Source: a virus. Taken from it: a DNA stretch of 28,276 nucleotides. Where the stretch lies: positions 1 to 28,276 of IMG/VR virus record IMGVR_UViG_3300049811_000125; one strand, written 5' to 3'. The position numbers were made by a program, and so were the translations under genes. The notes beneath the pieces were generated by a model. It was not told the origin of the DNA. It was given only the letters and a program-made list of their open reading frames with translations, and made no database searches. Position 1 is the stretch's first letter; each line of letters begins with the position of its first letter. Positions 516 through 19,460 of the stretch are shown here, piece after piece.

Positions 516-1514
516 TCAGGCGGCAATTTTTACATCTTTGACCACAACGAAGGCATCAAGATTCTCAATCTCTACACCAACACGGGTGTACATTGTGAAC
601 TCAATGGTGTCCTTCTTCTGGGCAAACTGACGGTAGACCTGAATATCCCGCTTAATACCGACGATGCGGTTATTGGGGAATGTCAACTCTACGTAGCCGT
701 GGTTACCAGTACCGACAGATGCCGGAACTGAGAGGTCTTCCTTAAATAGGGGAACCTCAAAGATTGGTACACCGAAGGCGAACGGGTATGATCCGCCACC
801 CTGACCCTGAGGCCCAGCCTGGTTACCGCGAAGAATACCGGAAGCGATATCCTCAGGGGCGGTAGCAGACGAACCTAGAGTTGTTAGGTTGTACATGTAA
901 TCCTGCACCAAGTTAGACCCAGTGTAGAACCGTAGTTGGTTCCGACGAGCCTTGTAAGAACGCGGCATTGCCTTTAGTGCGCTGTTGAAGGTAGCCTTAG
1001 AAACTGCGGCTGAACCTCCTGCAACGACACGGCCACCAGCGAGAACCTTCTTGCGCCAACCGTCGAATGACTTGTAAAGAGCGTCACCGCTTAGGGCAGT
1101 GTCACCATTAATGGCGAGGTCTTCAATGTCATTACCGGCCTGTGTGGCCATCAGTTGTGCAACGTGATCCTCAAGGTCAGTACCCTCAATACCATCCTCA
1201 AGGGATTCGGTTGAGAGTTCCCAGTCTAGACGGAGTTTCTTTGTCGTAAGGGAAACCTTGGTGAAGGTGGGGACAGCGTTAACACCATCGTCAACTGCCT
1301 CTGTTGCCAGACGCAGCAACTTGCTGCCAACACCGATCTTGTCAATGTCCATGGTGTCAGCGCGCATACGCACAGTGCGAGCGGTTGCTACCAGGGAGGT
1401 TGCGTCCCACATGTAGTCGATGAAACGGTCTGCCTGCTCCTTGGCTAGAAGGCCACCGCCCCCTGAACCTAGTTCAGTAGTCCGAATCACCTTTTCAAGT
1501 AGTTCGTTACTCAT
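516..1514 (-). CDS. major capsid protein (HK97-fold type)
   Basis: 332 aa; builds the icosahedral head shell. The sequence has the usual composition and layout of HK97-fold capsid proteins without a long N-terminal scaffold domain: N-terminal ELLEKVIRTTEL followed by a Gly-rich stretch, a helix-rich middle (STESLEDGIEGTDLEDHVAQ, about 101-120), GNDIEDLAINGD (about 127-138), and a C-terminal beta-rich part with PNNRIVGIKRDIQVYRQF and FTMYTRVGVEIENLDAFV. The missing scaffold function is explained by the protease-scaffold gene immediately upstream. A GAGTGAGGTG ribosome-binding site precedes ATG. The gene lies 20 nt after the protease stop and ends before a strong terminator, as expected for a highly expressed capsid gene. 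The identification rests on overall pattern and on portal-protease-capsid synteny. Confidence 0.9.
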   Translation of the reverse strand: MSNELLEKVIRTTELGSGGGGLLAKEQADRFIDYMWDATSLVATARTVRMRADTMDIDKIGVGSKLLRLATEAVDDGVNAVPTFTKVSLTTKKLRLDWELSTESLEDGIEGTDLEDHVAQLMATQAGNDIEDLAINGDTALSGDALYKSFDGWRKKVLAGGRVVAGGSAAVSKATFNSALKAMPRSYKARRNQLRFYTGSNLVQDYMYNLTTLGSSATAPEDIASGILRGNQAGPQGQGGGSYPFAFGVPIFEVPLFKEDLSVPASVGTGNHGYVELTFPNNRIVGIKRDIQVYRQFAQKKDTIEFTMYTRVGVEIENLDAFVVVKDVKIAA

Positions 1515-1534
1515 GCTTTTTTCACCTCACTCTC

Positions 1535-2059
1535 TTAATTTTCTAGGGAACTAATGCCGAGAAATTGCCCGTCCCACAAACTTTTCTTAATTGGTGCCGG
1601 ATCACTGCCAAGATCACCGGACTTCTTTCCAGCAGTTGCTTCGGCAACAGCGTCAATCTGCTTCTCTACAGTATTGATGCTCTTGGAGATTGATTCGACA
1701 GCCTGGGTCAACTTGGACTCAAGCGCTTCAATCTTCTCATCGAATGCCTTGCTTACATCTGCCGTGGCCTTTGCGGTGACTTCCTCAGAAGTCTTAGAAA
1801 CAATCTGTTCAAGAATTGTACGAAGGTCGGCTAGTTCGGCGGTAATGCGCTCGAATTCACTGACCTCCACTTCCTCCGCACCAGCAACGGCTTCGCCTTC
1901 GTCAGAATCGGTAGCCTCTACCTCAGCGTCTTCGGCAACAGCCTCAACACTTTCGACGGTTTCAGCCTCAGGCTCAACTACCTCTTCGGCAACAGCCTCA
2001 GGCTGTTCTACCTCAGACTCTTCTGCGACAGGCTCTTCTACATGCTCTTCATTTGCCAT
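1535..2059 (-). CDS. predicted nested scaffold protein from internal start
   Basis: An in-frame ATG at codon 258 of the protease-scaffold gene begins MANEEHVEEPVAEE and would give a separate 174-aa product: the acidic stretch plus coiled coil, without protease or zinc ribbon. It has a perfect AAGGAG (rc of 2068-2073) 8 nt upstream, better than the ribosome-binding site of the full-length gene. Lambda C/Nu3 uses the same nested logic to make scaffold in excess over protease. Seen: the start and its ribosome-binding site. Inferred: that it is used. Confidence 0.7.
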   Translation of the reverse strand: MANEEHVEEPVAEESEVEQPEAVAEEVVEPEAETVESVEAVAEDAEVEATDSDEGEAVAGAEEVEVSEFERITAELADLRTILEQIVSKTSEEVTAKATADVSKAFDEKIEALESKLTQAVESISKSINTVEKQIDAVAEATAGKKSGDLGSDPAPIKKSLWDGQFLGISSLEN

Positions 2060-2830
2060 GTGTATTTCTCCTTCGCTAGTTTTTTCATCCGTTTCTGGCA
2101 ACGGATTGTTTTCCGGCTCATCACCGGAAGTATAAAAGGCGTCTACCATTTTCTGTATTTCTTTATGTACAGTGGTATCACGCTCGATCCATCCAATATC
2201 AGTCATAGCAGTGCTGCATTCTGGGCAGTCGCGGGAATCCATGGGAGACGCAATAACAGTGCGGCATTTCTTGCATGTATAAACATGCTCAGCAGCAGTC
2301 TCAACCTCAGTTCCCGCCACCTTTTGAACAGACACAATATTAGCAAACTGATTTGCCGGATTATCTACAAGGGAAAGTTCATATAGTTCGAGTTCTTTGA
2401 TGACCTGAACGCTTTTCTTAAGGTCTTCGTTGAATACCATTTCAGCATCTTTAACAACGCCGCCGATTGAAAAACCGGAAAGTGTACCGTCCAAAACTTT
2501 CTCCCATGTGTCACTTGCTCCCTTGGAGACATAAGCATTTACATATACGCCATTATAGTATTTTCCGGTTGATGGATCATACAGGGTTTCCGGCGCAAAA
2601 GACTTGATTTTACCTACGGCAATTGGCTGATGCATTTCACGCAGATTGCCGCGAAACTGGCTAAATGCTTGGAGTGATCCTTCGAGGGTTACAATGTCAT
2701 CGTGTGTGTCTACGTTATCAAGCGTGGCAAATCCACTTACAGTGCGTGACTCTTTATCAACCTTCTGAAATGGCATGGTCATTGTTACCTGACCATCTTT
2801 AGAATACCAATTCGCTTTATTAATATTCAT
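1535..2830 (-). CDS. prohead protease fused to zinc ribbon and scaffold
   Basis: 431 aa. Residues about 15-175 match the HK97 gp4/U35-type prohead protease: SGFATLDNVDTHDDIV, a candidate catalytic His67 in LREMHQP, Ser121 in GTLSGFSIGG, and the family signature LYELSLVDNPAN near 149-160. It then has a four-Cys zinc-ribbon-like segment (C186-x2-C189, C202-x2-C205), a linker, a very acidic Glu/Val/Ala-rich stretch (about 260-335) and a coiled-coil-like segment (about 335-405) typical of scaffolds. The fusion would assemble the procapsid and then cleave scaffold and capsid N-termini. The first ATG has only a weak ribosome-binding site; Met17 or Met19 are alternatives. The zinc ribbon inside a protease-scaffold is unusual. 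It sits between portal and capsid, as expected. Confidence 0.9.
   Translation of the reverse strand: MNINKANWYSKDGQVTMTMPFQKVDKESRTVSGFATLDNVDTHDDIVTLEGSLQAFSQFRGNLREMHQPIAVGKIKSFAPETLYDPSTGKYYNGVYVNAYVSKGASDTWEKVLDGTLSGFSIGGVVKDAEMVFNEDLKKSVQVIKELELYELSLVDNPANQFANIVSVQKVAGTEVETAAEHVYTCKKCRTVIASPMDSRDCPECSTAMTDIGWIERDTTVHKEIQKMVDAFYTSGDEPENNPLPETDEKTSEGEIHMANEEHVEEPVAEESEVEQPEAVAEEVVEPEAETVESVEAVAEDAEVEATDSDEGEAVAGAEEVEVSEFERITAELADLRTILEQIVSKTSEEVTAKATADVSKAFDEKIEALESKLTQAVESISKSINTVEKQIDAVAEATAGKKSGDLGSDPAPIKKSLWDGQFLGISSLEN
2068..2073 (-). promoter_or_regulatory. internal Shine-Dalgarno for nested scaffold
   Basis: Minus-strand AAGGAG lies within the coding sequence, 8 nt before the in-frame ATG at 2059-2057. 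Its quality and spacing are the reason for calling the internal start. Confidence 0.7.
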
Positions 2831-2869
2831 ACTAGATTGAGAATAGCAACAAATGCATTAAAATGCAAA

Positions 2870-4408
2870 TTATTGCTGTTGCCGCCCCTCTCCCTTAGCG
2901 TTGCGTGGCTGAGAGCCGGAAGAATCTGGATTAGTGGCCGATCTTTCCTGATCGCGCTTACGATTTCCAGACGCCTGCGTAGATTGTTCTGCTGATTGCT
3001 GAGGCTTCAATTCAATTACTTTATCGCCGCCCGAAATTGGTGTCATGCCCTTACGCAGACGAACCTCATTCGGTGTGTATACCTGCATGCGTAGGTACCG
3101 CTCATCAATGCGGCTTTGCGTGTCTTCGTCGGTCAACGTAAGTTCATTAAATTCAAGTTCCAGTGCGTCAGTCATTTCACGAATAATACGATTGATTTTC
3201 TTAGCAAGCGCGCGCTGCTCGGGCTGACATACCTGTTCTTTGAATGTCTTGTCAGCATCCTTTGCAAGGGCTACCGATGCATTGTCACTAATACCAATTT
3301 TTGTAATTGGTACACGGTGGGCCATAAGAATTTCGTCCCTGTTCGATGTACGGTAATTATCGAACGATGAATCTTGGATTCCGTTTTCCACCGCCTGCAT
3401 ATTGAACTCTGTCTTAGAGCCACTAGGGTCATCCGGTGGCAGGGGAATGATTACACTGCGATGACTTTTACCTTTAAGGTCTGATTGCATAAACTCTAGC
3501 AAGCGCTGTTCGGTTGCCGCTGAGAATTTACCGCCCTTTAGGGTAATGACGTAACGTGGTGCGGCGCGGTGTTCAAAGTAATCAAGGTTGAAGCGTGTAG
3601 CGAATTCGTTACCTGCTACCGCTCCCAGCGCAGATACGATATCTGGAACGCCGTAATAACTATTTGTCGGGGAGGACTTCTTCAGGACAATAATTTCGTT
3701 AGGCTGCTTTTGGTCAGAAATTGGGTCGGGAGTTGTGGTGTCCCCAAAGTTACGGAAAAATACTGCTTTGTTACCACTGATCTGTACATAGCCGTCACGA
3801 GCATTACGAACGCGCATTGTCAATGACGGGATATGGCCAAGATATCCAATATTACCATTGACTGTACGGCCTACTTCAATGTATCCCATGCCGGTCGCTT
3901 CGTAGTCAGTATACGCAGCAGTAATGATTTGAATAAATAGGTTTTCGTCGTTGAAAGATTCTAGACGCTCAGTAAGTTCATATCGTAAACGATCTAGTTT
4001 TTGACGAATGGTTTTGCGCTTCTTTTCTGAAGACGCCCGCTCCACCGCTTGCTTCGTAGCAAATGTTTCTACAAACTCAAAGCCCAGCCCAACGACGTTG
4101 GCTGCTTTGGCATTAATCGCAGCATAGTTATACGGCGATACTTCATATAGTTTGGCGAGGTATTTAAGGTCGTATGGCGGTGTTGCCAAATCAAGTGCGT
4201 CGTATGATGTATAGTCAGATGTGATCTGTTTGGATTCCGCCCCATCGCCCTCTAGGCGCTTGCGTATTTGATTTTGAACACGGCGACTGGCATTACGGCC
4301 AAGGCTGATATCAGACACCGGCCTCTTAAATGGATCATCACTGCCGTAATTACTTGCCTTGCGTATATCTAGATACGCAATTTCAATCTCATCGCCCTCT
4401 GTTGTCAC
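2870..4408 (-). CDS. portal protein
   Basis: 512 aa from the chosen start; the dodecameric portal forms the DNA entry vertex and binds terminase and head-tail connectors. Portal-like features include the N-terminal helical start with PPYDLKYLAKLYEVSP followed by NYAAINAKAANVVGLGF, a stem/wing region with DFEHRAAPRYVITLKGGKF-like pattern, and VPITKIGISDNASVALAK then FKEQVCQPEQRALAKKINRI near the C-terminal third, as in PBSX-type portals. The C-terminal 45 residues are Gln/Ser/Arg-rich and probably disordered. I chose GTG at 4408: it has GGAGGA 5 nt upstream and overlaps the end of the preceding gene. An ATG at 4438 in the same frame would add 10 residues but lacks a comparable ribosome-binding site. 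Confidence 0.9.
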   Translation of the reverse strand: MTTEGDEIEIAYLDIRKASNYGSDDPFKRPVSDISLGRNASRRVQNQIRKRLEGDGAESKQITSDYTSYDALDLATPPYDLKYLAKLYEVSPYNYAAINAKAANVVGLGFEFVETFATKQAVERASSEKKRKTIRQKLDRLRYELTERLESFNDENLFIQIITAAYTDYEATGMGYIEVGRTVNGNIGYLGHIPSLTMRVRNARDGYVQISGNKAVFFRNFGDTTTPDPISDQKQPNEIIVLKKSSPTNSYYGVPDIVSALGAVAGNEFATRFNLDYFEHRAAPRYVITLKGGKFSAATEQRLLEFMQSDLKGKSHRSVIIPLPPDDPSGSKTEFNMQAVENGIQDSSFDNYRTSNRDEILMAHRVPITKIGISDNASVALAKDADKTFKEQVCQPEQRALAKKINRIIREMTDALELEFNELTLTDEDTQSRIDERYLRMQVYTPNEVRLRKGMTPISGGDKVIELKPQQSAEQSTQASGNRKRDQERSATNPDSSGSQPRNAKGEGRQQQ

Positions 4409-4739
4409 GAATATCCTCCACAATTGCCGGTAGGTCATATTCGTCAGGAATAAGACCTTCCTTCATTCGGTATTGCTGCCGTGCGTATTCTTCGTCAGAT
4501 ACCTGTCGGTGGCCGGGGAAAAAGATTGGCTGACCTTCAGTAATTCCAAACTCAATCCGTACAAATTCACGCAACTTTGCAATGCGCGTTAGGTCACCAG
4601 CCTGGGACGGAATATTGAGAAAGTTACGGTCATCATCTGCAATAAAAGAGCCATCTGGCATCTCCCACATATACACACCGAACTGGTCGAACTGGCCTTG
4701 GCTTACCGGCCTCAATCTAGACTTTTTTGTATTTGACAT
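4389..4739 (-). CDS. conserved-looking small phage protein upstream of portal
   Basis: 116 aa, not recognised. It begins with a basic segment (MSNTKKSRLRPV), followed by FGVYMWEMPDGSFIADDDRN, which looks like a small beta-hairpin domain with a W and a DGSF turn. It ends in a charged helical tail. Its last 20 nt overlap the chosen portal start, so the two are translationally linked. There is no Shine-Dalgarno; instead TTGCTT-N17-TACACT lies exactly 6 nt before ATG, so the gene may be leaderless. Position beside the portal suggests a head or packaging role, but nothing in the sequence proves it. Confidence 0.7.
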   Translation of the reverse strand: MSNTKKSRLRPVSQGQFDQFGVYMWEMPDGSFIADDDRNFLNIPSQAGDLTRIAKLREFVRIEFGITEGQPIFFPGHRQVSDEEYARQQYRMKEGLIPDEYDLPAIVEDIRDNRGR

Positions 4740-7700: not shown

Positions 7701-10008
7701 ATGCATTGTAGTCACCGCCCGCCAATTCTTTTAGCGTTATGTCGTACTTTGCAGGAAGGCCATTGTCAACGTATGCATGGCGCAGAACTATTTTGTGCTT
7801 TGAGTCGGCGGTGTCGTATTTCTTAACAATTTGCATGCCATTTGATTCATCGTCTAATGACATAATACAGAATTCACGAGATGTTTCTTGGTGGAAATTG
7901 GCAAGGTAGAATCCAACGCCCGCCGCGCCTTCGGACGCGCTGGCGACACGGTTCATTTCTTCAACTACCAAATATTGAGCGGCTTCGCCTACCAAATCTT
8001 GAATGTATATGTTGTCAAAGTATACTTCTCTCCCAAGTTGTAGTGCTGATGTAGACTTCAGGACAAAAGTAATCTGTACGCTTGACGTAAGAGCCGGGGC
8101 TTTGTTAGCGGCATACATGGGAGTCCATGCGCCGACGCCAATTGACTGTGACGAGGTTACTGTGGCACCAATTTTTGTGCCGGAAACGTCGTACCATTCA
8201 TATCGTATTTCGCTTGTTTCTGTACCGGCCAGATCGGCAACAAGATACGAACTAAACCGTGCATAAATCACATCGTCTGGGTCTGCTGGCAGTCGCTCAG
8301 ACTTGATGCCAATTTCTGTACTAGAAGCATCGGTACACTCTAATTTAAGGGAATAGAATCCGCTGTCGTACAACTCGCCACGCGACAACCTGGGGAGGGC
8401 ATGACTAGAATGCTTAAACCATCCATCAACGTAATCATTGAACATATAGCCAAGTTGTAGCATGGCATTATCAATAAATACCTGGCCGGTGGCAGTGCCA
8501 TTAGACACCGCCTCAAACTGTACTACTACGTCTGTAGCATTAGACAAGATATCAAACGATATGACGCGAGATACCCATGACGTAGGAACATTTATTGGAA
8601 TAACTGTATCTGCTAGCGCAGAGCCGCCATTCCATTGCAATACCCGCGCTTGAAATACTTGTGCGCTAAGAGTACCTTTTACATCAAACGACAAAACCAT
8701 TTTATTTGGATTGCCACCAGTGGGGTCGAATGGTTCTGGTGTCGGTAGTTTGAGTGGAATAATCCCATACGGATTACCGGCGTCATTTACTACGGTTTCT
8801 TTGACAGGAATCTTATTAGTGTTTTTAATAGCAATTTTATTGCCATTGGCTGTTGCGCCAAGCGTTAGCACTGCTGAGTATTGGGATGACATTGCATCTT
8901 GGGACATTGTAACGCTTGATCCGCCGCCCGCTGTATTTACTACGTCCCAGAGGTCAGGGACACCGGCAGGGGCAACAGCAACATCAACATCGAACGAGGC
9001 ATTTTCAAATAAGTTGATGCCATTATTGAATGTTGACATATCATCGGAAATAAGTTTTTCGCCAGGTAGTAATTGGAATGATCCTCCAGTAAAGAATATA
9101 TTATCATCTACTGTATCTGGCGATGTAACGTCTACCAGCCCAATTTCGTTCCGATTATAGGACACATTGTAAGAAGAGTCGGATACTGGCCACACTCCGT
9201 CCTGCGGAAAGTCAATGTCTACCACGGCATCTGAATCAGTGTCGTCAATGGGGAAGAAATGGCCCTGTGTACGCTTTGCTATTTCCTGGGAGCCTACTGT
9301 TGACCGGCCCAAAAGATAGTGTCGCTGAATTGCCTCTGCCGAAAGAATAGTTTTGTATAAACTAATGGCATCTACAGTTACCGACCCAGACGAAGGGCCA
9401 GCGACCCTGTAGTTAGACGTAACAAAATTCCATTTCTGCTTGTACGGAACCTTGGCAGCAGCCACCAACTTTTGGTCGATGTACAACTCTATCCGGCCAT
9501 TGTCAAACGTCGCTACGAGGTGGTGCGACATTTGCGGCTCTAGTAAATCGTGGAATATGACGGTATCCTGGCCGGTTGATTTTGCATTCTCTGTGTTAGA
9601 CACTTTGAATATTACTTGACCGTCTTCTATGCCGATGTAGTTGTTTTCTACCGCTCCTGTTGATGTGTAGGGCTGGAAGAGTCTTATGCCGGTCTGGTTC
9701 TTATCATTAAGCAGAAACCACATTTCAACAGTAAATGCATATGACTCCCGTGACAGATTCCACATTTCCATAGATGGAATTTCAATGTAATTGGAGGAAC
9801 CCAGTACAGTGCCATAAACACCACCTGATACTAACGGTAATGCTCCGGTAGTTGGCGGCGTTCCTTTATATGTTGCATTTAATGCCGATGCTGCATCTTT
9901 AGATGTGTCATACGCAACCTGATTGTTTCCCTGGTTAGACTCATCTAGTTTATACATGGCCATGGGGTTGTCCAGCATGACCGCATCGTAATAATATGAA
10001 GAAACCAT
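4783..10008 (-). CDS. very large modular tail protein/adhesin with LamG-like and CBM-like domains
   Basis: 1741 aa. Residues about 1-230 form a LamG/concanavalin-A-like domain (PMAMYKLDE, FTVEMWFLLND, HHLVATFDNGRIELYIDQKL, ending LSAEAIQRHYLLGR). Downstream are CBM4/9-like jelly-roll modules recognisable by repeated N-terminal NP/NA-SF-type starts and terminal VFIDNAMLQ, VYFDNIYIQD and LYVDEVQLEQG motifs (about 330-690 and 1004-1350), another LamG-like segment (about 690-850) and a C-terminal LamG-like domain (about 1355-1700). Two modules appear inserted inside others, near 1055-1235 and 1455-1640. Such proteins usually sit on the tail tip or fibres and bind host surface glycans. There is no Shine-Dalgarno; TATAAT lies 8 nt before ATG. 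No catalytic signature is seen, so binding is likelier than depolymerase activity. Confidence 0.85.
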   Translation of the reverse strand: MVSSYYYDAVMLDNPMAMYKLDESNQGNNQVAYDTSKDAASALNATYKGTPPTTGALPLVSGGVYGTVLGSSNYIEIPSMEMWNLSRESYAFTVEMWFLLNDKNQTGIRLFQPYTSTGAVENNYIGIEDGQVIFKVSNTENAKSTGQDTVIFHDLLEPQMSHHLVATFDNGRIELYIDQKLVAAAKVPYKQKWNFVTSNYRVAGPSSGSVTVDAISLYKTILSAEAIQRHYLLGRSTVGSQEIAKRTQGHFFPIDDTDSDAVVDIDFPQDGVWPVSDSSYNVSYNRNEIGLVDVTSPDTVDDNIFFTGGSFQLLPGEKLISDDMSTFNNGINLFENASFDVDVAVAPAGVPDLWDVVNTAGGGSSVTMSQDAMSSQYSAVLTLGATANGNKIAIKNTNKIPVKETVVNDAGNPYGIIPLKLPTPEPFDPTGGNPNKMVLSFDVKGTLSAQVFQARVLQWNGGSALADTVIPINVPTSWVSRVISFDILSNATDVVVQFEAVSNGTATGQVFIDNAMLQLGYMFNDYVDGWFKHSSHALPRLSRGELYDSGFYSLKLECTDASSTEIGIKSERLPADPDDVIYARFSSYLVADLAGTETSEIRYEWYDVSGTKIGATVTSSQSIGVGAWTPMYAANKAPALTSSVQITFVLKSTSALQLGREVYFDNIYIQDLVGEAAQYLVVEEMNRVASASEGAAGVGFYLANFHQETSREFCIMSLDDESNGMQIVKKYDTADSKHKIVLRHAYVDNGLPAKYDITLKELAGGDYNAWHYVLLAWSGDLFSAALDAGTWIVTEYDTSSHSSFQLSYSTELTLGAGIDGQNGLGTAIKNVKIHEYIPSTASFVSDQTSNGNYYLPLANDVNICMKGYAEFTFDFNGVYESIDDAKIEWGPNNNAVKLYGGVVTNPPTQLTSGGEPSPIKGGYCPSLTAPQYYLRAAFETTNLIYRPATLQYMSLTMLDNVKFKTKTANHVLKPTGSFTVPTKSTPIINQFAQNGIKFTKGSASKNFVPNGGFTYDTSNWVPWRDAWCILERSTEEYVSGGSSLKVTALKDRAEFATIANGSRNWFKHFVTDFGDNAFDYTSNCTATQTSDIKRDSGLPVAKITKTAAGSNHTFGLTRTNGKRYAMAWTGVQYRVTLKIYKTVARPLTVYIDEYNSSNTIVGTTSAVLNTATVGEWETVSLTNPANVAGVTLSLYVTGNNSDGWLANETYYIADVQFEYSNPLPSPYAYDPYGFTDGPPISIAGLSPSTQYTLSAKVKSNIGNSCSAFIRILWVDAAGATISPYDTNSVISVDSGWTTISATITSPANTSSAWLRFFITNISSGEVLYVDEVQLEQGASVTAYEDNVPSVMRLELDKKYLTSASNDEGYMSSMPRQQNIGTFEQWIRYDDANPAPGTTLTVAEHRTSFSTKCGIYYTSTGITYTNMQAVYLDGVAISSGTTNFVRGKWHHLVFIPNNFSTTINHIVNPVPQGTTAWNASASTTMSSESIEHPVGSTALTATWTGGAAATGYQCSLYTDVTQLGQLKYYTLSFYARASTTSRQPIAYIQWKNSAGTELRNSRITFEQQAVSTKWTRYYATFYTPSSTDKATVFIGFVGAANTEKFYVAGIMLVNDGYNTAYFDGSVYPGVWEGTANNSRSLIYNYFGNYNECIDQSINSKWFWNGSYNGAGQMTATYSNITIHEKALTASQVLDNYQSTLSRGTSIAVDDVMETVIGGSYPKIYDGAPLSISAPWQVFNGTP

Positions 10009-15898: not shown

Positions 15899-16354
15899 CA
15901 CTGGCAGTTTATCGCGCTTGCGCGAATTACACGTTCTACATAAAGGTTGTATGTTCTCTATTACGTTAGCGCCACCTTTTGATAGCGGAATAATATGATC
16001 CTGTGTAATATCTTCTGCGCTGCCACAGTAGGCACACCTGTAATTAAACCGCTCTAGCATTGCTTGCCAGTCAACAATATCTATTTTTCCACTTTTCAAA
16101 GCATACTTACGCCTACGTTGATCGTCTCGTTTAACTTGTAAGTACTTTTCGTAGTTTAACTTTTTCCAACGATCTTTTTGCGCGCGGCTTTTATCTGGAT
16201 TTCTAACCACCCAATCTTTTATTTGAGCATTTTTACATGACTTACACTTACTTGTCACGCCATATTTTCCGTTAGCCTGCCGGTGAAAATACTCTGGTGT
16301 TGCTAGCAATCTATCATTACACCCAGAACATACTTTATATTGTGCAGGAGTCAT
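15893..16354 (-). CDS. free-standing HNH homing-type endonuclease
   Basis: 153 aa from the chosen ATG. The C-terminal HNH nuclease domain shows the paired CAYCG and CRTCNSRK zinc knuckles around the ITQDHIIPLSKGG core (catalytic DH) and ENIQPLCRTCN. The N-terminal third has two further Cys pairs (VCSGC, KCKSC), a zinc-finger arrangement seen in several phage HNH proteins, then a basic linker. The ATG at 16354 lies inside the last codons of the ribonucleotide reductase gene. Upstream TTG and GTG codons in frame could add 6-7 residues. A free-standing HNH directly beside an intein-bearing RNR is a typical mobile-endonuclease position, and it may promote its own spread into related phages. Confidence 0.85.
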   Translation of the reverse strand: MTPAQYKVCSGCNDRLLATPEYFHRQANGKYGVTSKCKSCKNAQIKDWVVRNPDKSRAQKDRWKKLNYEKYLQVKRDDQRRRKYALKSGKIDIVDWQAMLERFNYRCAYCGSAEDITQDHIIPLSKGGANVIENIQPLCRTCNSRKRDKLPVV

Positions 16355-19300
16355 TGCTACAATACCTATCACCAATTGCCTCTAGATTATCAACGCCATC
16401 ATATATTGCCGAAAAGTCAATCTTTTTAATTTGACCGATATACGAATTGTACTCATCTTCCGTAATTTGAGTATATGGTTGCTGCGGATATGATTCATTA
16501 CTCATGGGCAAAAATGACACTGCTTTCAGCGACCCCTCATGTAATCTTAATGCTGGAACAAGGAGGTGCTTTTCTGTTTCCTTATCAAAAGAGACAGTGA
16601 CAGAAACACCATTGTCGCTCCAATAATGCTGTGCTTTTGCAGCCAGACCGATTTTTTCAAATACTGAAACTTCTCGCTCTGAGCGATGGGCATTAGACTT
16701 CACCGGAAAATACACAACATAAGTATCATGGCTAACAAGGTCTTTTTCGATCTTGTACCCAGCAGCCCTGAATAGTGGAATCATTTTGTCTGATCCGCCG
16801 AATCTGATAGCGCGCATATAGTGCTTGCCCCCTGGCCCCCAGTGGATGCCGGGGGAGGCACCCGACAAAAGGCTTACCGTGCCTTCTGGCTTGATAGTAG
16901 TAACACGGTTAGATTCACGCACGCACAGCCACTCAGAATAAATCTTGTCTAGGCGACGAACCTCTTGATAGCCAGCATCCATCCACTCAAGAATTTCTGG
17001 GAGTCCATGCTCATCAATTACGTCAGTAATACCAGTAAGCGACAGGCCAATGCGACGGTTTCTTTGCATAACACTATTTGTTTTAGTCCATGGCGTAGGA
17101 ACAAGTGTCACTGTTTTAGCATATAGGAACGCAAACTTTAATGTTCGCAAAAAATCTTCTTTTGACTCGGCATTTTGTAAGTGAACAGTTACAAGGGTAC
17201 ACATTTCTTGTGACTCTAGAGGCTGTTCTGAATTGTGCGCGTAGAGTCCATTTGCGTCAAAAGCGTGCACATTGTCTACCTCTGCGTCCCACACTTCCTG
17301 CCGACCGACAAACTCAAATGAGTCAACTGTTGCCACGAATGGCTTTGTATACTCTTGCTTTCTCCAAGAAAGCGCGTGTTGCAGTTTCTCTGACTTTGCC
17401 TTGTGTAAGAATCCGATCTTGTCTGCATAGCGAAGTGCGCTGTCTGCGGAAATAACTAGCCTCCATGAAGCCTTGGTCTTATAGTAAGCCATTCCACCCT
17501 TACCGTCCGGTAAAAGAGATTCGCCAGCATCACGAGCCTTATAGATTTTTGAGTTGATTCCAAGACGGAGAAGCATTCTTTGCACTACAAGAAGCAAATC
17601 TCTACTGGACTGCCCTAGCCTAATGCTAAGCCCCTTATATGAATCTGACTCATTATAACCTTCTACATGACCGTCTGCATCAAACAAGCCTCGCAAGAAC
17701 CCTTTATAGAACTCGCTTGACTCGCCCTCCAAGTGAGTAACGTCATGCTTGTTGTCAAGTTTCATACCATATTTATAAGTCAATGGAGTAATACTCATCT
17801 TTTGATATGGACGGTCTGATACCGCAGACCACCCGCCCCAGTCCGACCTAGTTGCATGCTCTTCAGCGATCTTTTGAGTGTAGTCTGCAATATCACGATC
17901 ATCTCCGTCAATATCCCATACCTTAAGGTGTGCGGAATATACTGGCATACCGGCCTTAATATACCCACGGTCACGCTGGGCGACCTTATTCTGATTGCTG
18001 AAGTTGCCGTCGCCTACAAAATGCCCCAGAACATACCCGTCGCCATAGTTGTCTGTATTGCCCCATGAGATATCATTGTGGCTATTAAGCCTAATTTTAT
18101 CACCAGAACGCAAGTCTTGAGCCTGAACCCAATCTCCACCCTCCTTCAGCATTCTATGCTCTGGGGTAAGTTCTATGACGAACCCCTCCTTTGTAGAGAG
18201 CCTATAAACATCTCCAACTCCTGAAACCCATGGCTGGGACGCATGATATTCTTTACCGTCTACAATCGCAGTGAACTCGCTATCAATATCGCAGATTTGG
18301 CGCGGCCCGTCAGAAGTCATAATACTTGTAGTAGGCGCAACGCAGCATGGGTTAAAACCAACTACACGGCGATCCTTGTCGTCGGGGGCGTCCATCATTC
18401 TTCCGCGCGATTTGGCAACATCAAGCCATACAAAACCAGGCTCACCATTATTAACAATTAAATCAAGATACTTTTCATAATCTGCTCCAACAGGAACGTT
18501 AATTGAGTTGTTAGAGGCCCAGGCCCAGCCAGGATTATTTGGATCATATGAATTCCGCTCTGGGTAAACGCTTGCATTTTTTAAATCTAAGAATTTTGCA
18601 TCATCATAATCGCCCAACATAATTTCCGCACTGCGGCGAGTTGATCCAGCGATAACACAAGCGCCAATCATATTGAAAATATCTACAATTGTTTCAGAGT
18701 CAAGTGTTCTGCCGACTCGCTTCTCAAAAATTACCTCAAGCCTGTCGTGCAACATAATAAGTGGCTCTGGCCCAGATGCTAGCCCTCCAAAAGTCTTTAG
18801 CGGAGTCCCCTTCGGGCGAATAAGGCTATAGTCAAACTTAATTGGAGCATTATGGCGAAGGTATGAATTAATCAGAAGGCGTAGAGATTCTGCCCAACCC
18901 TCCCTAGAATCTGGAACTACAAATGTTTCAACGTTACCGGAGCGCTCACGGATTTCAATATGCTTTTTTGCGCCTAGCATATCAGCGCCGACCCCGACCC
19001 CATACATGAGCGCTAACATAGCCCACTGAAATACCGCTCCGGGGTCGTGTCGGTCAATGTCTCCGGTAGAAATAACAGCACAGTTTTGCAGGGATGCGCT
19101 ATTGCCATCCATCACCTGCTTACTGCCCATTTTCTCTAGACCGCGCCCAGGTGGAGTCCATTTTAGATTAAACATTCGATCAAAGAACTCTTTGGCGCTG
19201 GCTTGCCCTTTTTGATCATTCCACTCCAACTTATTTGTTTTTGCATGGCTTTTCTGAATTGAATATGTGCCATTCGTTACACGAACGCATGTATCCAGCC

Positions 19301-19460
19301 AGCGCTCTTTAGTTCCGTCACTATTAAGATTGGAGTAGGTACGCAAAAATGTCAATTCTCCTAAACTGTTACTCCCTGCATCACGGAATCCGAACGGTGG
19401 CTCCACCGTCTTGTACTTCTCAATAAAATCAGGCAACAGCCTAAAAGAAAAATCAGTCAT
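16335..19460 (-). CDS. nrdJ: adenosylcobalamin-dependent ribonucleoside-triphosphate reductase (class II), with intein
   Basis: 1041 aa; about 670 aa after splicing, somewhat shorter than the 739-aa Lactobacillus enzyme. It reduces ribonucleotides to deoxyribonucleotides using vitamin B12 coenzyme and so supplies dNTPs for phage replication. Visible features of the monomeric RTPR type: SLQNCAVIS (Cys127, redox pair member), radical-site Cys372 in FNPC directly before the intein, Cys at +11 after splicing (QEMCTL) as the redox partner, the PEGTVSLLSGASPG-like loop, and the C-terminal CSNDSC pair that re-reduces the active site. The ATG has GTAGGAGAG upstream. A small hairpin lies before the gene. 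It overlaps the downstream HNH gene. Confidence in the class is high because the Cys spacings match. Confidence 0.95.
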   Translation of the reverse strand: MTDFSFRLLPDFIEKYKTVEPPFGFRDAGSNSLGELTFLRTYSNLNSDGTKERWLDTCVRVTNGTYSIQKSHAKTNKLEWNDQKGQASAKEFFDRMFNLKWTPPGRGLEKMGSKQVMDGNSASLQNCAVISTGDIDRHDPGAVFQWAMLALMYGVGVGADMLGAKKHIEIRERSGNVETFVVPDSREGWAESLRLLINSYLRHNAPIKFDYSLIRPKGTPLKTFGGLASGPEPLIMLHDRLEVIFEKRVGRTLDSETIVDIFNMIGACVIAGSTRRSAEIMLGDYDDAKFLDLKNASVYPERNSYDPNNPGWAWASNNSINVPVGADYEKYLDLIVNNGEPGFVWLDVAKSRGRMMDAPDDKDRRVVGFNPCCVAPTTSIMTSDGPRQICDIDSEFTAIVDGKEYHASQPWVSGVGDVYRLSTKEGFVIELTPEHRMLKEGGDWVQAQDLRSGDKIRLNSHNDISWGNTDNYGDGYVLGHFVGDGNFSNQNKVAQRDRGYIKAGMPVYSAHLKVWDIDGDDRDIADYTQKIAEEHATRSDWGGWSAVSDRPYQKMSITPLTYKYGMKLDNKHDVTHLEGESSEFYKGFLRGLFDADGHVEGYNESDSYKGLSIRLGQSSRDLLLVVQRMLLRLGINSKIYKARDAGESLLPDGKGGMAYYKTKASWRLVISADSALRYADKIGFLHKAKSEKLQHALSWRKQEYTKPFVATVDSFEFVGRQEVWDAEVDNVHAFDANGLYAHNSEQPLESQEMCTLVTVHLQNAESKEDFLRTLKFAFLYAKTVTLVPTPWTKTNSVMQRNRRIGLSLTGITDVIDEHGLPEILEWMDAGYQEVRRLDKIYSEWLCVRESNRVTTIKPEGTVSLLSGASPGIHWGPGGKHYMRAIRFGGSDKMIPLFRAAGYKIEKDLVSHDTYVVYFPVKSNAHRSEREVSVFEKIGLAAKAQHYWSDNGVSVTVSFDKETEKHLLVPALRLHEGSLKAVSFLPMSNESYPQQPYTQITEDEYNSYIGQIKKIDFSAIYDGVDNLEAIGDRYCSNDSCTI
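17232..18344 (-). mobile_element. LAGLIDADG intein in the RNR active-site loop
   Basis: 371 aa (Cys373 to Asn743), inserted between the radical Cys372 and Ser744; splicing would restore NPC-SEQPLE. Splice features: Cys1 (CVAPTTSIMTSDG), block B near LTPEHRM, block F around VWDAEVDNVHAFDANG, the penultimate His and terminal Asn (YAHN), and Ser as the +1 residue. Two LAGLIDADG motifs, YVLGHFVGDG (about 476-485) and FLRGLFDADG (about 588-597), carry the acidic catalytic residues, so the homing endonuclease may be active. All key residues are present. Confidence 0.95.

Follow-up and report, generated by a model that had tools for sequence, protein, structure and literature searches.

The locus analysed here raises the question of whether the gene that lies between the portal and major capsid protein (MCP) genes of a virus gives rise to one protein or to two. 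The DNA, referred to below as the window, is a 28,276-base virus fragment, and the features discussed are collected in Table 1. Among isolates, the closest are Streptomyces phages with 130-kb genomes from the Stanwilliamsviridae (Faust, Karimac, Bmoc and Comrade), the protease gene being 43-47% and the capsid protein about 61-64% identical to theirs. The scaffold region is matched by 127 Streptomyces phage records, and the same gene type also occurs in Rhodococcus relatives and in many environmental contigs. None of the examined records from this phage group carries an annotation for a short nested gene, one protein being shown throughout, and a literature search limited to open-licence papers yielded no account of a nested scaffold for such phages.

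Table 1. Features of the protease-scaffold locus in the window, in the order in which the minus strand is read.
Feature	Position	Strand	Basis or remark
Portal gene	2870-4438	-	
Promoter-like -35 box TTGCAT, 17 nt from the -10 box	2863..2868	-	Family pattern
Promoter-like -10 box TATTCT, 9 nt before the protease ATG	2840..2845	-	Leaderless-type
Protease-(zinc ribbon)-scaffold fusion gene, 431 aa	1535..2830	-	Between portal and major capsid protein genes; Pfam Peptidase_S78, PHROG 9427
S78/HK97-type prohead protease domain, residues about 1-175	2306..2830	-	Pfam; His67 and Ser121 invariant; AlphaFold2
Zinc-ribbon-like insert, residues about 178-216, CKKC...CPEC	2183..2299	-	Weak DUF7129 match, alignment, pLDDT 76-88
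Nested Shine-Dalgarno AAGGAG, 8 nt before the nested ATG	2068..2073	-	dG -9.6; family conservation
Nested start codon ATG, codon 258	2057..2059	-	Start codon at the same junction in 26/26 homologues
Nested in-frame gene, 174-aa scaffold-like protein MANEEHVEE...	1535..2059	-	Stop common with the protease gene
Acidic, predicted disordered N-terminal half of the nested product, residues 258-323	1862..2059	-	pLDDT about 30
Predicted long helices/coiled coil, residues 324-399	1634..1861	-	AlphaFold2
Conserved C-terminal scaffold tail, KKS...W.G.F, including the common stop codon	1535..1633	-	Invariant A400, K403, S404, W419, F423
Strong Shine-Dalgarno of the capsid gene, GAGGTG	1523..1528	-	dG -12.0
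Major capsid protein gene, HK97 fold family, no delta domain	516..1514	-	TIGR01554 match; identity to annotated Streptomyces phage MCPs

The minus strand at the nested site reads ...CTAGCGAAGGAGAAATACACATGGCAAATGAAGAGCATGTAGAAG..., and it was here that the sequence-only reading had placed an AAGGAG motif 8 nt before an in-frame ATG at codon 258, 174 codons ahead of the common stop; every coordinate of that proposal holds. The same reading had set this start at the junction between the protease/zinc-ribbon part and an acidic scaffold, and codon 258 indeed falls in a predicted disordered linker after the zinc ribbon. The duplex of the Shine-Dalgarno (SD) sequence with the anti-SD was scored at -9.6 kcal/mol, a value equalled or bettered by 1 of 216 internal in-frame starts in the 12 other minus-strand open reading frames (ORFs) of the window. 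An equally good site arose in the junction region in 12% of synonymous-codon shuffles of the window gene, so that the window alone does not settle the nested start, and the site judged from it is suggestive. The nested region was less RNA-structured than 83% of gene positions on average, and than 95% in the window.

The comparison was therefore carried by the family. A protein search of viral contigs with the protease gave no confirmed relatives, the same search with the neighbouring capsid protein found relatives, and the Rhodococcus capsid protein, used as a query, recovered nothing beyond itself. The first set consisted of 80 environmental loci found through the capsid protein, together with isolates, from which the ORF upstream of the capsid gene was taken; 26 homologues less than 80% identical were compared. 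In counts that are not independent, as the homologues are related, the nested start was the strongest SD-led internal start in 26/26, at 145-191 codons before the stop and with a median SD of -13.8 kcal/mol (mostly AAGGAGG). The next-best start in the same gene usually reached -4 to -8, and the AAGGAG of the window was the weakest nested SD of this set. In the other ORFs of the same loci, internal starts reached -11 in 1/1389 cases and -9 in 10/1389. The nested codon was ATG in 13 homologues, GTG in 11 and TTG in 2, and it lay within one alignment column (+/-1) in 23/26, the Rhodococcus sequences shifting with the linker. Furthermore, in a blind test on 61 new clusters from two further sets, fetched later, the nested start was present in 58 (median -13.7; 147-212 codons from the stop), and the other three formed a single type (L247, L249 and L251) with an ATG in the same place (MADE/MANE) and a weaker, more distant SD. 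The recurrence of the nested start across the family is far beyond chance. At one locus (L073:3780-4000), a deletion breaks the protease frame and spares the nested scaffold together with its SD and start; this is probably an assembly fault or a defective genome.

The 5' part of the gene was identified as a prohead protease by profile comparison. The 431-aa protein matched Peptidase_S78 with 30.5 bits against a Pfam cut-off of 21, its homologues also scored above the cut-off, and PHROG 9427 (head maturation protease) matched it over the full length with E=1e-117. A Foldseek search with the whole-chain model returned no structural match at E<=0.001, and the protease identity thus rests on the Pfam and PHROG profiles. 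In the family alignment, His67 in a REMH motif and Ser121 in an SGFSIGG motif were both invariant, and we take these to be the candidate catalytic residues of an S78 protease. An AlphaFold2 model built with our own family alignment of 20 sequences was well predicted as far as about residue 234, a stretch that takes in the protease and the zinc ribbon, with residues 161-177 as the exception, and the pLDDT of the protease domain was mostly 80-94 up to residue 160. The DUF7129 match of the zinc-ribbon-like insert was below the cut-off. The zinc-ribbon cysteines are absent in several homologues (L038, L042, L071 and L076), which indicates that metal binding by this module is not essential to the family. 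Nine other loci (L008, L010, L011, L013, L014, L016, L017, L018 and L021) carry about 73 extra codons between the zinc-ribbon region and the nested start; this insert is a TUDOR-like Hva1_TUDOR domain (36.4 bits in L008), and the nested gene is left intact.

Beyond the zinc ribbon, the model predicted disorder over residues 238-326, followed by long helices (residues 324-399), for which a PDB sequence search returned generic coiled coils only. The conserved C-terminal tail is likely to be the capsid-binding end of the scaffold. The capsid protein itself bears on the function of the nested product: TIGR01554 matched its residues 16-140 at profile positions 109-230, and the N-terminal portion of about 108 profile positions is absent. 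A capsid protein that lacks the delta domain should depend on a scaffold encoded separately, and the interval between the portal and capsid genes contains no other candidate. From its position, its acidic and coiled-coil anatomy and the delta-less capsid protein, we consider with good confidence that the nested 174-aa protein would serve as an assembly scaffold.

The two starts of the gene differ in their signals. At the protease start no SD was found, the median being +0.45 kcal/mol in the first set and +0.5 kcal/mol in the second. What stands there in the window, directly after the portal stop, is the promoter-like pair TTGCAT-17 nt-TATTCT-9 nt-ATG. Defined as TTGNNN and, after a spacer of 15-19 nt, a TANNNT whose end lies 6-10 nt ahead of the ATG, this pair was present at the protease start of 26/26 homologues against 0.74 expected in shuffles, and of 40/58 new clusters against 1.4 expected; the -10 box TANNNT alone was present in 26/26 and 52/58. 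The pair occurred at 0/84 nested starts and 0/82 capsid starts. A promoter of its own for the nested gene was rejected on this count and on a generic sigma-70 scan of the region, which was empty on the minus strand; the scan, demanding a closer consensus than the family pattern, found no protease promoter either. Leaderless genes in mycobacteria have been described with a -10 box directly before the start codon and without an SD (PMC4633059). The protease start has this layout, namely a -10 box just before the start codon and no SD, and translation of the protease is probably low-yield, from an mRNA with no leader or almost none. With a leaderless-type promoter instead of an SD at the protease start, the two products seem to use different initiation modes.

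This division of start signals extends beyond the gene. In the first 50 kb of phage Faust (L258), 34 genes had an SD, 9 had a leaderless-type promoter (by a criterion with a shuffle rate of 3%), none had both and 14 had neither. In the window, the SD-less minus-strand starts at 10008, 10723 and 23175 have a TATAAT-like box 6-9 nt before the start and a -35-like box, and these are candidate leaderless promoters. A broader proposal is that the protease would be made only from its own short leaderless mRNA, all transcripts that cross the region, whether this one or read-through from upstream, feeding the SD-led scaffold and capsid genes. The choice between leaderless and SD-led initiation, and not promoter strength alone, would then fix the ratio of protease to scaffold to capsid protein, and the phages would sort their genes into leaderless and SD classes. 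We regard the chances of this proposal as evenly balanced. The leaderless/SD split lies outside what the sequence-only reading had claimed; it may be the most interesting extension of the analysis, and it could surprise. If confirmed, it would supply a simple, testable rule for the proportions in which a phage makes its assembly proteins, and phages of actinobacteria could serve as a model in which to study leaderless translation.

Taken together, the comparison points with high confidence to a real, selected internal translation start at codon 258. A separate scaffold-like protein from this start, in excess over the fusion, is also supported, the excess being suggested because the start of the protease itself lacks an SD. 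The model that we consider very probably correct is that of one gene and two proteins: a low-yield, possibly leaderless protease-scaffold fusion and an SD-led free 174-aa scaffold in excess, in which the fusion enters the procapsid and the protease clears the scaffold. We infer the production of both products, their ratio, the leaderless transcript, the scaffold function and the proteolysis as parts of this single scheme. Full-length translation would yield an S78-type prohead protease that continues, by way of a zinc-ribbon-like linker, into an acidic coiled-coil scaffold, and a second initiation at the ATG at 2059, by its own SD, would yield the 174-aa scaffold alone in the same frame and to the same stop. 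The leaderless mRNA would give little protease, while its SD sites would direct high-yield synthesis of the scaffold and of the capsid protein encoded downstream. The free scaffold may then co-assemble with the delta-less capsid protein. Through its scaffold half, the fusion would enter the procapsid in a few copies, and its protease would degrade the scaffold ahead of DNA packaging. Provided that the promoter is real, transcription reading through from upstream would supply mRNA for the scaffold and the capsid protein and not for the protease.

The nested SD reads in frame as Glu-Gly-Gly, and conservation at the protein level therefore had to be excluded. The EGG(x)n-M/V stretch might be kept as protein, for example as a self-cleavage site of the protease, with the resemblance to an SD a by-product of the codons. 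Prohead proteases do cut their fusion partners, EGG or KGG is conserved in most members, and the cleaved scaffold half of herpesvirus UL26 is 21 residues longer than the nested herpesvirus product (PMC4498786), which is a precedent for a cleavage site near a nested start. The synonymous codons, however, are fixed. The two SD glycines are GGA in 25/26 and GGT in 23/24, against 34% and 26% elsewhere in the gene, and their codon entropies of 0.26 and 0.27 are the lowest among 37 conserved fourfold-degenerate columns, far under all other conserved glycine columns (next-lowest column 1.12, median 1.65); as the same sequences enter every column, relatedness is controlled in this comparison. Likewise, valine at the nested start is always GTG (11/11 against a background of 8%). 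The peptide becomes EGE in the window, EGV in Francesca and EGR in L244, L252, L253 and L255 (with GAGGGGAGGG) while the SD persists, and the SD-start distance varies by whole codons from 5 to 11 nt. The ribosome-binding site of the nested start is thus itself under selection in the family comparison, and a conserved cleavage peptide is a very improbable source of the pattern. Internal SD-like sequences can slow ribosomes, and this one lies between two domains, where a pause could aid folding. A role in elongation, either as a pause between folding domains or in frameshifting, would require neither a correctly spaced start codon nor GTG over other valine codons, and such a role is hardly credible beside initiation. 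Other fixed codons were observed near the end of the gene, at Lys403 (AAG, 23/23) and Ser404 (TCC, 74%; 1619-1624) and at Phe423 (TTC, 96%; 1562-1564).

The nature of the products leaves two further readings to be weighed. The gene might produce a single fused protease-scaffold protein, the internal site being idle, as in phage P2, whose gpO has scaffold and protease within one protein (PMC8508860); the annotations examined agree with such a single product. By the same scoring, however, P2 O has no internal SD-led start, unlike the window gene with its strong one, which nearly all members of the family keep, and it is the full-length start that lacks an SD. A single product with an idle internal site consequently has little to recommend it and is most unlikely. 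Alternatively, the nested protein may be made and yet not be an assembly scaffold, acting for example as a decoration or DNA-binding protein. It has no sequence match to a known scaffold family, which leaves room for such a role, but its gene stands immediately before the capsid gene, its disordered acidic and coiled-coil anatomy ends in the conserved tail, and, as set out above, the MCP has no delta domain and no competing candidate precedes it. A non-scaffold role is accordingly judged unlikely.

The preferred reading of one gene with two products has well-known counterparts. The sequence-only reading had likened the locus to lambda C/Nu3, and the likeness stands for the nested arrangement: in lambda too, the 3' part of the protease gene contains the scaffold gene in the same frame and with a common stop, just upstream of the capsid genes. 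It does not extend to kinship, and lambda is an analogue rather than a relative, as C is annotated as an S49 peptidase whereas the window protease is of the S78/HK97 type, with no S49 family among its Pfam matches. The signals are also reversed, since in lambda the C start has a strong SD (-12.0) and nu3 a weak one (-6.9). In phage Mu, the Z gene is contained in frame within I, which encodes the head protease and precedes the major head protein gene; the start of I is weak (-2.0) while that of Z has the best SD of the gene (-7.4), as in the window family. The Mu gene is shorter, its nested SD is weaker, and the protein matches to the window gene did not include Mu. Scored in the same way, the internal SD of the window family (median -13.8) is stronger than those of both textbook cases. 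Herpesvirus UL26/UL26.5 is similar in combining a protease-scaffold fusion with a free scaffold and differs in belonging to a eukaryotic virus, and the short protein UL26.5 comes from its own transcript, not from an internal SD. The two herpesvirus genes overlap in frame and have identical 3' ends, giving the protease-scaffold fusion and the free scaffold (PMC4498786). The present analysis gives a large phage group a structural gene that its annotations lack, and places the nested protease/scaffold arrangement, known from lambda, Mu and herpesviruses, in an S78-protease background.

Other phages arrange these functions differently. HK97 gp4/gp5 has no separate scaffold, and the delta domain of the capsid protein serves instead (PMC8508860). 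In HK97 and in T5-like Vibrio phages, as in the window, an HK97-type protease adjoins the capsid gene; in the latter phages (Ceto and JSF12), a protease of about 202 aa is accompanied by a longer capsid precursor of about 465-470 aa. In Vibrio phage 1.215, Stenotrophomonas phage DLP_5 and Rhodobacter phage RcKickapoo, which have the same MCP family, an XkdF-type protease and a protein of about 400 aa are encoded by two genes in the same order. A profile comparison of the nested scaffold with the separate genes at the scaffold position of distant phages showed no similarity, and a fusion of two once-separate genes thus stays a suggestion from gene order. Endolysin genes that yield two polypeptides through an internal start (iTSS) differ from the window gene in their proteins and in their purpose. 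In the archaeal phage psiM100 of Methanothermobacter (L098), the gene just ahead of the capsid gene, ORF12, encodes a 406-aa protein with a central XkdF-type protease domain, and is another fusion of a protease and a scaffold-like tail. A distant 661-aa protease-bearing gene, Tsac_2860 of Thermoanaerobacterium phage THSA-485A (L089:2971-4956), has strong internal SD-led starts at codons 162 (ATG, -12.5) and 343 (GTG, -13.1); these may mark a further nested arrangement or have arisen by chance, the gene being rich in purines.

Two minor observations were made elsewhere in the window. In the portal gene, an in-frame GTG at 4408 on the minus strand, 30 nt downstream of the listed ATG at 4438, has an SD of -9.3 against -2.7 for the ATG, and is likely to be the true start. 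Moreover, positions 16335-19460 contain a ribonucleotide reductase gene with a LAGLIDADG/intein-like insert, which matched LAGLIDADG_3 with 73.5 bits and Intein_splicing with 31.9 bits, the latter under the cut-off of 35.8.
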